Positions 5,450 to 51,970 of a DNA stretch of 64,000 nucleotides are shown here, in pieces. The stretch comes from Sistotremastrum niveocremeum HHB9708 (Eukaryota > Basidiomycota > Agaricomycetes > Sistotremastrales > Sistotremastraceae), in contig KV419453.1 in the NCBI GenBank assembly GCA_001630475.1, forward strand, positions 68,798-132,797, read 5' to 3'. The notes under the pieces were generated by a model that worked only from the letters and a program-made list of their open reading frames with translations, searched no databases and had not been told where the DNA came from. Positions within the stretch are counted from its first letter, which is position 1, and every line of letters begins with the position of its first letter. The position numbers and the translations under genes are program-made.

Positions 5450-6738
5450 ATGCCTGCCAGTAAAACCATCAAGCTCAACACCGGCGCAGAGATGCCCACT
5501 GTCGGTCTCGGTAAGCCTACTTTATCTTATCGCGATCTAGATCTCGGCAATCGCTAAGTCTTCTATAGGCACCTGGAAATCCCAGCCTGGCGCTGTTGAG
5601 AAGGCCGTTGAGCATGCTATCAAATTTGGCTACAAGCACATCGACACTGCTACCGCCTACTGTATGTCTTTCTGATCCGATTTTCCTTCGATTTCGTCTT
5701 ACATGCGTTTTTAGCAAACGAAGCTGAGGTCGGCCAGGGAATCAAAGCGTCCGGCGCCCCTCGTGAATCGCTGTTCATCACCACCAAGTTGAACAACATC
5801 GACCACAGAGACCCCCAGGCTGCTCTTGACTACTCGCTCAAGCAGCTCGGTGTCGGTTACCTCGACCTGTGGCTTATGCACTGGGTAAGTTTTGATCAGT
5901 CTGAGATCCGTTCGAACCTTGTGCTGATGACCATGACAGCCCGCTCCCATGACCAAGGACTGGAAGGCTGACAAGGAGCATGACTGGCTGGACACCTGGA
6001 AAGCCATGGAGGAAGTATACAAGAGCAACCCCGACAAGGTCAAAGCTATTGGTGCGCATATATTGGTCATTTCGGCTTTGAATGGATCCTGACTGGATTG
6101 CCCAGGTGTCTCCAACTTCTCTATCCAGTACTTGGAGAGACTCCTTCCTGAAGCCAAGGTCGTCCCTGCCATCAACCAGGTTGAACTCCACCCTGTAAGC
6201 ATATCCTCAGTTCAAGCCTCCATCGCTAAAATATTGATTTTGAATTTTCAGTCGTGCCCTCAGGAGGAGCTCGTTGCCTACTGCATCTCCAAAGGCATCT
6301 CAGTGACTGCCTACTCTCCTCTGGGATCCGACAACAGCCCTCTGTTGAAGAACCCCGTCGTCAACAAAATCGCCACCGCGCACGGAGTGTCTCCCGCCAA
6401 CATCCTCATCTCCCTCCAAGCCAACCGCCCCCATGTGTCCGTTTTGCCTAAATCCGTTACCCCCAAGCGTGTTGAGGGTATGTTTCGTTGACGATCCACT
6501 GTGATGATCGTGCTGATTTATTGTTCCCCAATAGAAAACTTCACGATCGTGGACCTTAGCGAGGAGGAGATCGCCGAACTCCACAAGATTGATGAGACCC
6601 ATCACTTCAGAGCTTGCAACCCCGAGGTACGCTTCTCTTGGCTTCACAGCTCTGCCGTTACTCACTCTTCCCCGTTCACAGTGGGCTGGTCACGGACATC
6701 TCGGTTTCCCTGATCGTATCGGTGTTGAGTCAGCTTAA
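5450..6738 (+). CDS. Aldo-keto reductase (Gcy1/glycerol dehydrogenase-like)
   Basis: A cytosolic NADPH-dependent carbonyl reductase of about 300 residues in eight exons. It shows the family path: N-terminal LNTGAEMPTVGLGTWKS, HIDTATAYANEAEVG with the catalytic Asp and Tyr, FITTKL with the catalytic Lys, DLWLMHWP with the catalytic His, VSNFSIQYLE, NQVELHP, TAYSPLGS, and the NADP phosphate-binding stretch VLPKSVTPKRVEENF. The last exon encodes WAGHGHLGFPD and ends with the TAA at 6736-6738. The ATG at 5450 gives the normal family N-terminus. Substrate preference cannot be read from sequence. Confidence 0.92.
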
Positions 6739-6851
6739 TCTATTTCTTGTTGTCGGAAGTACCATGCAAGGTTGCATACACGTCACTGGAGTTTAGACTG
6801 TAGTAGTTGAAACGCGAATAAAATCAATAGCATCACGGAAGGTCATGAAGC

Positions 6852-6927
6852 CTACGGTCGCCCTCGAGTCTGTAGTAGACTTTCTCCGATTTCATTCTGG
6901 CTCGGGACCTTCGATTTCAATTCTCAC
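6852..6927 (+). repeat. Left terminal inverted repeat
   Basis: The outer 31 bp (6852-6882) are the exact reverse complement of 9510-9540. The following about 45 bp match 9464-9509 imperfectly. Confidence 0.75.
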
Positions 6928-7150
6928 GACAGTTTCACCGAGACCGAGATCCTGGAGCAACAAAGATGCATTAAATCTCAGATATGTGTCGGTTCTCAAG
7001 AAGTTTCGCTAATTTAATAATCGGTCACATCGGCATTGCAAGCTTGCGGCATCGAGACGGCAGATTGAGCAAGATGTGGCATATTCAAGGTTGTCTACAT
7101 TCACTAATATCAAGTAAACAACAGCCATGCTCGGTTCCATAATATATAAG

Positions 7151-7399
7151 TCAGTCGTCGCCGATGCTGAAACCGTTGAATATGTTTTCCGGGTCTGCCG
7201 ATTCGTGCCGAATGTGGGTCGGAGCCTGGGGTCGGAGTTTGAAAATGGGTGCCTCGACGCCGTCTTGTCCAGCAAGCCTGTCTATGTCGACGAAGACAAT
7301 TCGTGTGGGATCAATCTTAATCTCTCTTTTCACCGAGTTGATTATTCTTGTCATATTTCCTTGTTTTGCGAAGACAAACAGATCCATCCGGGAACTCAC
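7151..7399 (-). other. Unidentified minus-strand coding-like fragment inside the TIR element
   Basis: An open frame of 82 residues with protein-like composition (DPTRIVFVDID, APIFKLRPQAPTHI) ending IFNGFSIGDD. Downstream on the same strand, after a stretch with stops, a short frame reads DLGLGETVVRIEIEGPEPE into the terminal repeat. I do not recognise a family. It may be a remnant of an element gene, a captured host exon, or chance. Confidence 0.25.
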
Positions 7400-7449
7400 T
7401 CAAGACTACAAGGCCTCATCTGCCTCTGCAACCATCGTTTCTCGTCCGC

Positions 7450-8330
7450 TCCGGCTTCCCTCGTGGACTCCTATCTGTTGCTTTTGCACACGTGCTTCAA
7501 CCGTCTCTGTGTCTCTTGTGTAGTGGTCGCTTCAAGCCGCTGTTGAGAAGGACTGCCCTAAATGCTGGATGCGCCGTCACGCTCTTGATGGTACCGAGCG
7601 GCTAGGGATCGAGGTTCGTGCTCCCATATCGGTATCGCTATTTTGATTGACATCATTGACCAAAAAATTCCGCGATGTAAAACCTGTGGAGAGGTCTTTG
7701 ATTTTATGCCTCCGGGCCAGAGGACGTGGTGGATGTCAAAATACAGCTACACGTACGTCACCTGACTACCTCTCATCTTAAAGCTTCTCTTAAGTTCATG
7801 TAGGTGGTTCTATTCCCGCGAGATCTTCTTCACGTCGTCACCAATCCCCCGCCGATGCCATCGTCATCGTCGATAGTAGTGACCTCGAAGAAATCCCTCC
7901 TAAACCGACTCGACTGTCAACGGGCACCCTCCGCCGTCCTCTCCCACAGTCTATCATACATTTCAAGAAAGAAGTGAGCGAGCAAAAACCGAGGGAATCA
8001 TTGCTTCCAACCTCCAAGATCTCACTCAAGTTGTCCTAATGAAGATCTCTGTTGGTACTCCTCTGGCCTCGCCCCTGTGTACGTTGTGCGGACAACGGCC
8101 AATCGACACTCCGGATGGACCTTCGAGAGAAGACTGACACTTCAAAATTGGATCTCGAGTCTGCGTTCGCGCTTTCGCAAGTGATCTCAAGTTCTTTGTG
8201 AACGCCTTCCGGACGACGCCTCGTACGTGCATACACGGTCACAGAAAGAAAACTATTGCTCACCCTTGTTTAGATTTGACTGTTCCTCTACCCACTATTG
8301 TCGTGGAAGGACCATCGGATTCACGCAAAT
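7450..8330 (+). pseudogene. Unidentified fragments with CxxC pairs, plus strand, inside the TIR element
   Basis: Separate short frames hold ICCFC, KDCPKCW, RCKTCGEVFDFMPPG, a serine/acidic stretch IVIVDSSDLEEIPPKP and PLCTLCGQRPIDTP. Paired cysteines suggest zinc-ribbon or zinc-finger segments of one former gene, and a plausible intron joins two of them near 7754-7803. No intact reading frame spans them and I cannot name a family. It may be what is left of the element's own protein. Confidence 0.3.
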
Positions 8331-8994
8331 GATCCAATGCAGCAAGTATGGGTTTACCGCAACGAAATTTAGTCAGAATTGATCTTCAATTGCGAGAGGC
8401 AAGTCCCGATGGTGATTTTTCACAGATTATATTGCACAGATCATTTGATCTTCATTGGTTTTGACTGACTTTAGAGGTATACATAATCCATTCTCCTCAA
8501 TTCAAATCATTGATTCCGTTACAGCTGCACATTTGGACAACAGGCATCAATCTCTGCGACCCTTCATACCGAGGTGTCACACGTCAGTGTTGACCTATTG
8601 TCAATAGATTAGCATTTTCACCTCATAAGGATTTGTGGCAACCAGAAAACCAGCAATGACGGACTATCGGCACTTGACAATTTCAGGAAAAATCAAGGCT
8701 ACGACGAGTGATAGGACTGGGACCAGGAAAGTTCTTGTAGCTTGCAGAATAGACGTCAATTGCTCCGCCACGAACACAATCTGAAGTTTATTTACAACTT
8801 ACAAGCAAATCTGATTTCTGCTTCGAATTGCATTTTTTGCTGTAATTACAAGCACTCTCACTCTGAGCTAGTCAGTTCAGCCGTTATTCTTTGCATTTCA
8901 CGCACCCAGACGACAAGCACGACTGTTGACCAAGTTTGAACCAAGTTCGCAACTGACGAACTTACGGGGCGGAGTTTGAATTCGGCGCCTATTT

Positions 8995-9012
8995 TGACCG
9001 TGATCACGGTCA
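8995..9012. repeat. Perfect 18 bp palindrome
   Basis: The site reads TGACCGTGATCACGGTCA and is self-complementary throughout. A 7 bp stem (8943-8949 with 8957-8963) lies just upstream and a second 16 bp palindrome lies at 9259-9274. All are in the right half of the TIR element. Confidence 0.85.
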
Positions 9013-9258
9013 TTTCACCAACTTGCAATTATGTGCATATTAGCTGGATCATTCAAACTGAGAACCAAAATCGTACCAAGTTTTACACTATAACAGCCAA
9101 TACCAAGCCTGTAATTCCCTCGTCTCCCCTGATTGACATCTGCTAATCCGGATTGCCCAAGCATTCAGCGAGCTACATTGACGGTACAGAATACGAGAAC
9201 GGCAAGGAAAAGACCAAACGTCGATGCAGAGTCCTCCGGCAGATTGTAGCGCGAAGCT

Positions 9259-9274
9259 GAAGTCGTACGACTTC
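9259..9274. repeat. Perfect 16 bp palindrome
   Basis: GAAGTCGTACGACTTC, self-complementary, about 265 bp inside the right end of the TIR element. Confidence 0.85.
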
Positions 9275-9463
9275 GCTGCATACGTAATTCTTTGCAGCCA
9301 GATCTTACAGCACAGCCGACGATGAAGGAGCGTCAGCAGTACGGTTGTACCTAGGCGTATCTACGATTGCATCTTGGGATCTCGATATCTCATTCCTCTT
9401 CACCAAGATCTCATTACGCATCTGCATACTCGGAACCTGGGAATCGGCCTATAGGGACCCGGC

Positions 9464-9540
9464 GTGGGAATCGAAGTCGAATCTCGAGCTCGGAAAAAAA
9501 AATCGGGCGAAGTCTACTACAGACTCGAGGGCGACCGTAG
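9464..9540 (-). repeat. Right terminal inverted repeat
   Basis: Inverted partner of 6852-6927. The outer 31 bp (9510-9540) are identical, and AAGC follows directly, matching the AAGC before the left end. Confidence 0.75.
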
Positions 9541-9798
9541 AAGCCCGGGCCGCTTCGCATATCCCGCAACGCGCCTTCTTGGGCGACGCGCTGTACCTGT
9601 CCAACACCACGCAGCTAGTTTGAAACCAAGAGGTAACGCTCGGGTGGCCAAGGGTATGACTCAAACGCCCGCCGTTATCCAAATCAGGAGTGCTCCCAAC
9701 TGTCGAACTGACTCAAGGTTATAAGGCCATGGCGCCAGTCCGGGAACAGTTTCTAGTTCAAAGGACTGCGCGTCCGCAACCAGACATCCATCTTTACA

Positions 9799-49247: not shown

Positions 49248-50269
49248 GTGGGATCTCTGAGATCAGCACTCGATGACATCTATATCTGTCAATTCCTTGA
49301 ATTCCAATCGCATTCAACAAGTCCATCTCATACATGCTCCCGTTTGCGACTTTAGCCTACAGTAACGGATGTTCATGCGCTCTCATTCACACGACAGCAA
49401 TTCATATATGGCCTCTGTTCTGTGTTCACGTGTCTGAATTCCTTGGTCCTCTCATGCTCACTGGCAATGTGACATCGCGTGAACATCGCGTCGCTCTTTC
49501 ATAGCTCACACTGTTCCTGATATTATTGGTACATGCCAGTCAGACATTTCCAGGATCTTCTTAGTGCTCAAAGTCAATCAAAAGGCTACATGAAGAGCTC
49601 CTGATGCATGTCGCTCATCCTAATTATCTGGTCGGGCAGCCCACTGCTTCCACCAAGCTCTTCATGATTGCACTCGGTCCTTACAGATTGGGAGCTATAC
49701 ACCGTTACTTCTGCGCAGCTCGGCAGGCCACAACAAATCCATCATATCCTCGTCCTGAAACTCGCGGGCCTTCTCCGTCGCCAAACTGTTACTCACAAAT
49801 GTACATCGACATCATTCCACAAAGACATAGGGCCTCGCCCTCACATGACAATAAACTTGACCCAAAAATAAATAAATCCACAAAAGAATTGTATCCTGGA
49901 TTTTACGAGGGATCTCCTTTCAGTTCCTCGCTGCCCGCGGGAGATCCGACAAACGGTTAGATCTGTTTTATGTCATGCAGTACTCACCAATAAATAATCC
50001 CAGACATCGCTTCTGTGGCGAAGACAAGGCGAATCATATCTCTAGATGTTTGGTGGACGTATATATCCTCAAATTGATCATATATGATGTACATGCCTCG
50101 TATATCGTTCACTGGCACTGGTAGCACCGCGATACTATTCCTCTCCGAATCCTAAAGCGCCGCAATGGGCGGGTAGAAAGAGATGATTAAATTTACTGAA
50201 AGGGTGAAGACTCGGAGATGGTCAACAGTGTATAGTTAAAGATACTCAGCATGAAGGTAAGGTAAGATC
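49248..50269. other. Intergenic, about 1 kb without a supported gene
   Basis: Only overlapping frames of 60-118 residues with no domain or codon pattern. No repeat was seen apart from faint similarity of its last bases to the outer flank of the inverted repeat that follows. Confidence 0.45.
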
Positions 50270-50330
50270 TCAGTCGCACAGATGGCCACCTCTTGCGAGG
50301 GACCAACGCACGACCGCTCGCATACGACCG

Positions 50331-50697
50331 CAGACCACTTGTACAGCAGAATGCGACGATGAGAGACCTCCACTCAGCTCAGCTCTCCGACGTAGGGCGA
50401 CTAAGCCCCTGCCTCGCACAGCGGTGGTGACCAGAGAGCCACCATCCTGGGAGGTCTTACAAAGATAGTCGTTGTGCAGCCCACCACTGCCAACCGCGTC
50501 GGTGCCGTCTGAGAAGACGGCGGGGCCCACACAAGGCGACCAGGAGGTCGCTTTGCGAGAGAGTGGAAGGGATGAGAGAAGGGAAAGCACGCTTCCGGAA
50601 TCCGAGCGTACGATATATCGTAATTCATGTTTGGAATTCTCACAGGACACGTGACTGTATCGATACCATATTCCAGTGGAATACGAAGAGCTTCAAG
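50331..50697 (+). repeat. Left arm of a large inverted repeat
   Basis: The 367 bp are the exact reverse complement of 50913-51279. Outside, from 50330 back to about 50270, similarity continues with several mismatches. The arm contains short hairpins and perfect palindromes, mirrored in the right arm. Confidence 0.9.
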
Positions 50698-50912
50698 NNN
50701 NNNNNNNNNNNNNNNNNNNNNNNNNNNNNNNNNNNNNNNNNNNNNNNNNNNNNNNNNNNNNNNNNNNNNNNNNNNNNNNNNNNNNNNNNNNNNNNNNNNN
50801 NNNNNNNNNNNNNNNNNNNNNNNNNNNNNNNNNNNNNNNNNNNNNNNNNNNNNNNNNNNNNNNNNNNNNNNNNNNNNNNNNNNNNNNNNNNNNNNNNNNN
50901 NNNNNNNNNNNN
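50698..50912. other. Assembly gap of 215 N
   Basis: Undetermined bases exactly at the centre of the inverted repeat. Reading frames that run through it are artefacts. Confidence 0.99.
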
Positions 50913-51279
50913 CTTGAAGCTCTTCGTATTCCACTGGAATATGGTATCGATACAGTCACGTGTCCTGTGAGAATTCCAAACATGAATTACGATATATCGT
51001 ACGCTCGGATTCCGGAAGCGTGCTTTCCCTTCTCTCATCCCTTCCACTCTCTCGCAAAGCGACCTCCTGGTCGCCTTGTGTGGGCCCCGCCGTCTTCTCA
51101 GACGGCACCGACGCGGTTGGCAGTGGTGGGCTGCACAACGACTATCTTTGTAAGACCTCCCAGGATGGTGGCTCTCTGGTCACCACCGCTGTGCGAGGCA
51201 GGGGCTTAGTCGCCCTACGTCGGAGAGCTGAGCTGAGTGGAGGTCTCTCATCGTCGCATTCTGCTGTACAAGTGGTCTG
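50913..51279 (-). repeat. Right arm of a large inverted repeat
   Basis: Exact inverted copy of the left arm. Internal perfect palindromes or hairpins lie at 50928-50940, 50944-50953, 50988-51001, 51059-51074 and 51089-51106. From 51280 to about 51340 the match to the left side becomes imperfect. Confidence 0.9.
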
Positions 51280-51340
51280 AGGCTGTATGCGAGCGGTCGT
51301 GCTTTGGTATCTCGTAAGAGGTGGCCATCTGTGCGATTTG

Positions 51341-51970
51341 GGTCTTGCCTTGCTTCCTTGTCAGGCTGGGTGTGCCTTTCCTTTTGATAGGGCCATAATC
51401 TCCCTGATCCATGAGACTCCCTGTATTTTTTCCACTGAATGATTTAAACAGGCTCTATTGTATGCGCGCTGTTCCTCGTCTTTGACATAAATTCATCCTT
51501 CCACAAATACTTATCCCGACGTAGTTGCTAACATCACACTGCCGGTGCGATACTCAATTCATTCTTGTACGAAGCGCCTCACATATTTGTTCAATATGTT
51601 CTTCAATCATCTCACTGTAAGGGTAATAGACTGGCTGTATCAGTATAGATCCGAATTCCCCGACGCAAAACTTGTTCCTTGACACAATTTGTCACACAAA
51701 ATTCAGTCTACTGCAACATTTCGTTGATGAAGACTATCTGGCACACAGAAAATAGTCACGATTCAATGAAAATGGTCTACAATACAATGAGGGGAAGGGT
51801 AGAGACACACAAAAGTTGTTGGGGGAAAGGTTTACAATGCAGGGATCTAGGAAGGGTATGGTTGGTCTGTAGGGTATCAAAAGATTGGAGAAAAATGGTA
51901 AATGAGAGTTCTTGATTGATGAAATGTGTAATGGGTGGGATTGAAAGACAAAAAACTGATGGTTGACGCG
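51341..51970. other. Intergenic, no supported gene
   Basis: AT-richer stretch with no frame of interest; the right part is probably the 3' untranslated region of the minus-strand hypothetical gene. Confidence 0.45.

Follow-up and report, generated by a model that had tools for sequence, protein, structure and literature searches.

A probable non-autonomous, Ds-like IS3EU transposon and its fuller relatives in the genome of Sistotremastrum niveocremeum HHB9708

The element at positions 6853-9539 of the window (the whole 64 kb stretch of DNA that was analysed) is very probably a non-autonomous, Ds-like member of the IS3EU superfamily, presumably mobilised by the transposase of a fuller relative. 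This assignment draws on the agreement of four features with published descriptions of IS3EU: the terminal sequences, the 6-bp target site duplications, the type of transposase and the opposed alpha-kinase gene. Two IS3EU families appear to coexist in this one fungal genome, that of the window (family A) and that of an element on C9 (family B), each comprising a fuller two-gene copy and short dependants. Judged from sequence, both are new families of a known superfamily. Such helper/dependant pairs could be used for testing IS3EU movement, the ends that it requires and the role of the kinase.

Ends and boundaries of the window element

Base-by-base reading of the flanks delimited an element of 2687 bp (6853-9539, on C60), beginning TACGG and ending CCGTA, between two perfect copies of the 6-bp sequence GAAGCC (6847-6852 and 9540-9545). 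The chance of equal 6-mers at random places in the window is 0.0004. An earlier sequence-only reading had reported a 4-bp AAGC duplication; the duplication is in fact 6 bp long, and the element edges lie one base further inward at each end. The same reading had described perfect inverted ends of 31 bp. These are perfect as read, but the true repeat is 30 bp: the outermost C/G pair belongs to the duplication, one base coming from each of its copies and the two being complementary by chance. Beyond this core, 6852-6892 and 9500-9540 are inverted copies at 93% over 41 nt, and the similarity previously traced to about 77 bp was recovered at 80%. A 4-bp duplication combined with one variable base per end was also considered and dropped, since under it the terminal base differs between copies, whereas the 6-bp reading fits all 11 two-ended copies of the family. 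The features of the element are as follows.

6847..6852, unstranded: target site duplication, left copy GAAGCC, identical to the right copy
6853..9539, unstranded: probable non-autonomous IS3EU element, 2687 bp, TACGG...CCGTA
6853..6882, plus strand: left terminal inverted repeat, perfect 30-bp core, similarity fading to about 77 bp
7373..7772, plus strand: decayed N-terminal, CxxC-bearing part of an alpha-kinase gene, spread over several frames, its aligned pieces holding one stop (tblastn with C32 open frames)
7794..8044, plus strand: decayed linker of the kinase gene, including an acidic VIVDSSD stretch, in two frames and running up to the internal deletion junction (tblastn)
8042..8044, unstranded: deletion junction, AAG common to both sides, about 1 kb of kinase gene absent relative to the C32 copy
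8074..8220, plus strand: another stretch of decayed kinase gene, read in two overlapping frames with a single stop (tblastn)
8255..8708, plus strand: decayed C-terminal lobe of the alpha-kinase, interrupted by stops (tblastn; domain PF02816 named on the C9 relative)
9034..9053, unstranded: approximate site at which about 1.9 kb of the C32 copy, its transposase gene included, is absent (edges of two blastn blocks against C32)
9510..9539, minus strand: right terminal inverted repeat, perfect 30-bp core
9540..9545, unstranded: target site duplication, right copy GAAGCC, identical to the left copy

The 64 kb window contains 385 pairs of perfect inverted 18-mers more than 200 bp apart, of which 14 belong to the element ends and 371 to a palindrome at 50.2-51.4 kb, with none elsewhere. 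This confinement to the element ends and one palindrome indicates that the inverted ends exceed chance. Separately, AGACTGTAGTAG at 6795-6806, 46 bp outside the left end, matches part of the terminal repeat at 11 of 12 positions, possibly by chance.

Family A copies and the decayed kinase gene

We searched the genome (34.7 Mb, 111 contigs) with the whole window element, obtaining at least 68 matching pieces, and with its 30-bp end, which occurs at 24 places with up to three mismatches (22 of them exact). The reversed control pattern of this end gave no match in the genome at the same tolerance. A fungal host is supported by the short introns and by the fungal transcription-factor domain PF04082, which has 31 matches in this genome, 30 of them above the cut-off, compared with none in 14 control genomes. 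Eleven copies possess both ends, namely the window copy and those on C43, C8, C32, C63, C10, C16, C12, C22, C51 and C9 (220890-222436). Stretches with one end each on C5, C36, C50 and C88, together with one on C18 that has no end, were excluded from the copy counts. Each of the 11 is flanked by a perfect 6-bp duplication and carries TACGG..CCGTA ends. The ten copies besides the window's, with duplications of 6 bp that vary between sites, are the kind of further copies for which the sequence-only reading had proposed a search. In a multiple alignment of the 11 copies, identity over ungapped columns reached 87% between the window and C43 copies; the remaining 54 of the 55 pairs lay at 49-78%, and parts that barely align account for some of the lowest figures. 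The likeness of the C9:220890 copy to the others is confined to the vicinity of its ends.

The C32 copy (C32:21446-26966, 5.5 kb) combines window-type 30-bp ends with both genes in pieces: kinase-gene pieces whose alignments hold no stop, and an opposed integrase-type gene. It is thus the longer copy, with a transposase between the ends, that had been suggested as a check, and the only one of the 11 family A copies with a transposase match. Its transposase gene was read unspliced. The pieces sit in open frames, and two alignments that span presumed introns hold 5 and 3 stops, which leaves the working state of this gene open to doubt. Pfam searches with eight open frames of this copy, taken singly, returned nothing above the cut-off. 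A nested insertion of 282 bp (L011:5819-6100) also sits in the presumed intron 1 of the transposase gene; it has 20-bp inverted repeats that start TAAGGC and differ by one mismatch, and an 8-bp duplication, GAATGAAT.

With pieces of the C32 copy as tblastn queries, kinase-gene remnants were detected in the window copy between 7373 and 8708, spread over several frames and containing stops. Queries made from the C32 transposase (five open frames, limit E 0.01) found no transposase piece there, in line with the earlier statement that the segment holds no recognised transposase. The CxxC peptide fragments noticed earlier are indeed present and represent the N-terminus of the broken alpha-kinase gene. 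In the C-terminal lobe, NHSCNE of the C32 copy corresponds to NQGYDE in the window copy. The plasmid collection returned no match, and Rfam had none in the window. For annotation, the segment counts as the relic of a transposon, and the CxxC peptides do not belong to a host gene.

The C9 element and the probable assignment to IS3EU

Pieces of the C32 copy, used as protein queries, located a second fuller element, C9:86414-91553 (5140 bp), with 95-bp inverted repeats that are 99% complementary (ends: TACGGTTGCCCC) and a CCCTCT duplication. It encodes two convergent genes of 590 and 421 residues, free of stops after removal of predicted GT-AG introns (10 and 6, respectively). The 590-residue CxxC/alpha-kinase protein matches PF02816 over residues 506-578 (E 7e-6, 26.7 bits, cut-off 21.3), and the 421-residue integrase-type transposase matches PF24764 over residues 154-333 (E 5e-9, 36.5 bits, cut-off 26). 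The putative catalytic pattern of the latter, read from motifs, is D162, D221 and E264, and no cysteine occurs in the 161 residues that precede D162, so that an H2C2 finger is lacking. A sequence search of the PDB gave a weak match of the kinase protein to 4kuj ('Protein kinase, putative', E 0.014) with three weaker ones, and nothing useful for the transposase. About 150 bp between the two genes (L049, approximately 6387-6541) matches C83, C74, C40 and, twice, C49, in two or three pieces each, and is some shared repeat.

Ends of the C9 type occur at 15 further places in the genome. Two of these, C49:24010 and C9:122502, show one matched end, the outer end falling outside the fetched stretch, and were omitted from the family B count. 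The 13 short two-ended copies that remain, like the C9 element, all have TACGG..CCGTA ends, and 12 of the 13 have perfect 6-bp duplications, the copy on C55 having discordant flanks. The three of these 13 copies that were read whole, one of which contains a run of N, yielded neither a kinase or transposase match nor any likeness to the C9 interior beyond the ends. Short copies on C18, C55, C38, C63, C21, C13, C10, C28 and C9 have about 100 bp of end sequence in common with the C9 element.

According to published descriptions, IS3EU/GingerRoot elements have TA..TA ends, usually 6-bp duplications and an IS3/IS481-like DDE core without an HHCC domain (PMC10045372), and TET-positive IS3EU of rust fungi have 6-bp duplications, repeats longer than 30 bp that end TAYGG..CCRTA, and a TET/JBP gene lying between a transposase gene and an alpha-kinase gene of opposite orientation (Kojima 2025, PMC12730594). 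Family A, family B and the C9 element share the described ends. Duplications of 6 bp were found in 11/11, 12/13 and 1/1 cases, respectively, and repeats exceed 30 bp in both the window element (93% over 41 nt) and the C9 element (95 bp at 99%). A DDE transposase without an HHCC domain, its first D 100-300 residues in, is present in the C9 relative and not in the window copy, the IS3/IS481-like nature of this core following the domain name and the paper's description. The opposed alpha-kinase gene appears in the convergent genes of C9 and in the same layout on C32. With no transposase piece detected in it, the window copy is filed as a non-autonomous member only. Compared with IS3EU/GingerRoot generally, to which it is likened by published description, it is a deletion derivative. 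Compared with the rust-fungus elements as described, it has no intact gene, and the two spliced C9 proteins, scanned against Pfam up to E 1, show no TET/JBP domain. A small literature search met no alpha-kinase-bearing IS3EU without TET/JBP, which says little. The earlier suggestion of a DNA transposon or a non-autonomous derivative is supported by the same-ended copies and the longer, transposase-bearing ones; its further suggestion of a new or poorly described element outside any known superfamily gives way to IS3EU, which the 6-bp duplication and TACGG ends fit.

Three other origins were weighed. A new superfamily that merely resembles IS3EU is very unlikely: the likeness was judged by published traits rather than by protein alignment and the PF24764 match is modest, yet all four traits agree, namely the ends, the 6-bp duplication, the missing HHCC domain and the kinase gene opposed to the transposase. 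Still less probable is a Ginger-type transposon, related to Gypsy integrases and making a 4-bp duplication, which the integrase core had brought into consideration and which the 4-bp duplication of the sequence-only reading would suggest. Ginger1 and Ginger2 share an integrase-related transposase with the present relatives, and Ginger1 has 4-bp duplications; the group is described with TGTNR ends, duplications of 4-5 bp and an H2C2 finger (PMC2836005). Here, however, the ends are TACGG, the sites are not CCGG, the duplication is 6 bp and the C9 transposase is free of the finger, and Ginger was rejected on ends, duplication and zinc finger. The sequence-only reading had held that an absence of other copies anywhere, together with the same flanks in distant relatives, would favour an old inverted duplication of host sequence; the first half of this outcome did not occur. 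Such an immobile duplication has next to no probability: the strong differences between copy interiors are the only point for it, whereas the 30-bp end recurs at 24 places and all 11 two-ended copies have matching duplications of 6 bp.

Among eight places matching a C32 transposase piece (query included), seven show an alpha-kinase match no more than about 5 kb away, by homology at C32 and C9 and through PF02816 stretches at C49, C33, C27, C18 and C87; at C36, no alpha-kinase match was found among the 11 PF02816 stretches. The genes converge on C32 and C9, the matches point apart on C49, C33, C27 and C18, and they run in the same direction on C87. Genome-wide scans yielded 45 matching stretches for PF24764 and 11 for PF02816. 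The C9 and C32 genes, whose domains are split by introns, are absent from both scans, so these counts underestimate intron-split genes. Alpha-kinase genes recurrently accompany fungal IS3EU elements; the one in the window copy is broken.

TACGG-type repeats were sought at six further transposase-relative loci (10-15 kb each). None was found at C49, C33, C18 or C36, and C87 gave one poor pair without a duplication. The sixth locus holds a TACGG-ended element of 6156 bp (C27:273543-279698; L053:543-6698) with alpha-kinase and transposase matches and an internal run of N. Outside both of its ends 7 bp, GCCTGGC, are repeated rather than 6 bp, a deviation from the IS3EU pattern, and it likely represents a third family.

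Probable movement in trans and age of the insertions

The deletion junction of the window copy recurs, with its AAG, in the C43 and C8 copies; in the C63 copy it could not be judged by eye. These three copies (window, C43 and C8) thus have one kinase-internal junction in common, lack any transposase match and lie at different sites with different duplications, a combination that points to movement in trans. We infer that the deletion preceded their moves, and the simplest reading would be that one deletion derivative moved several times after losing its transposase. The transposase of the fuller relative would recognise the 30-bp TACGG ends, excise the copy and insert it at a new site through cuts staggered by 6 bp, producing the 6-bp duplication; both its action in trans and the cut-and-paste mode are deduced from sequence comparison. 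Styx of Zymoseptoria offers a parallel, its authors inferring that degenerate copies were moved by the integrase of intact ones (PMC10853768). Both systems combine an IS3EU-related transposase, inverted repeats (36 bp in Styx), 6-bp duplications and degenerate moving copies. Styx differs in its 7.9 kb length and four coding sequences, two of them found only in Zymoseptoria, and the main text of that paper never uses the word 'alpha'.

Across both families and the C9 element, and leaving the C27 pair outside the count, 24 of 25 flank pairs are identical over 6 bp. The exception (C55) differs at 5 of 6 positions and more likely reflects rearrangement than decay. The 24 identical duplications show 0 differences in 144 positions, giving a 95% upper bound of about 2% divergence since insertion. 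The 30-bp ends and the duplications are intact while copy interiors are mostly 49-78% identical, and since interiors differ far more than duplications, interior divergence mostly predates the insertions. Ends constrained by the transposase, combined with old lineages mobilised in trans, would explain this pattern.

Persistence of these copies as survivors of homology-dependent silencing or mutation, their interiors drifted below the recognition threshold and their ends held by the transposase, is unlikely; were it true, interiors would look old though every insertion is young. No clear signature of repeat-induced mutation emerged from five chosen of the 55 copy pairs (transition/transversion 1.18-1.40) or from the indices of the 11 copies against the rest of the window: TA/AT was 0.61-0.90 versus 0.63 (highest in L014, 0.90, and L023, 0.79), and the second index 1.08-1.29 versus 1.21. 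Under the unlikely survivor reading, the transposon's own alpha-kinase might serve to regulate host defence or transposition.

The 24 duplications, from both families, lean to G at place 1, C at place 3 and G at place 4. A central CG occurs in 8 of the 24, compared with 5.9% in the window (P 4e-5, a feature noticed after inspection of the data).

Two near-perfect palindromes were also observed. One, on C18 (L054:7000-7594), adjoins a transposase relative and has arms of 297 nt at 97%, 1 nt apart. The other, of 1.1 kb (window 50250-51360), has arms of 555 nt, 97% complementary and likewise 1 nt apart, and is either a foldback element or an assembly artefact.
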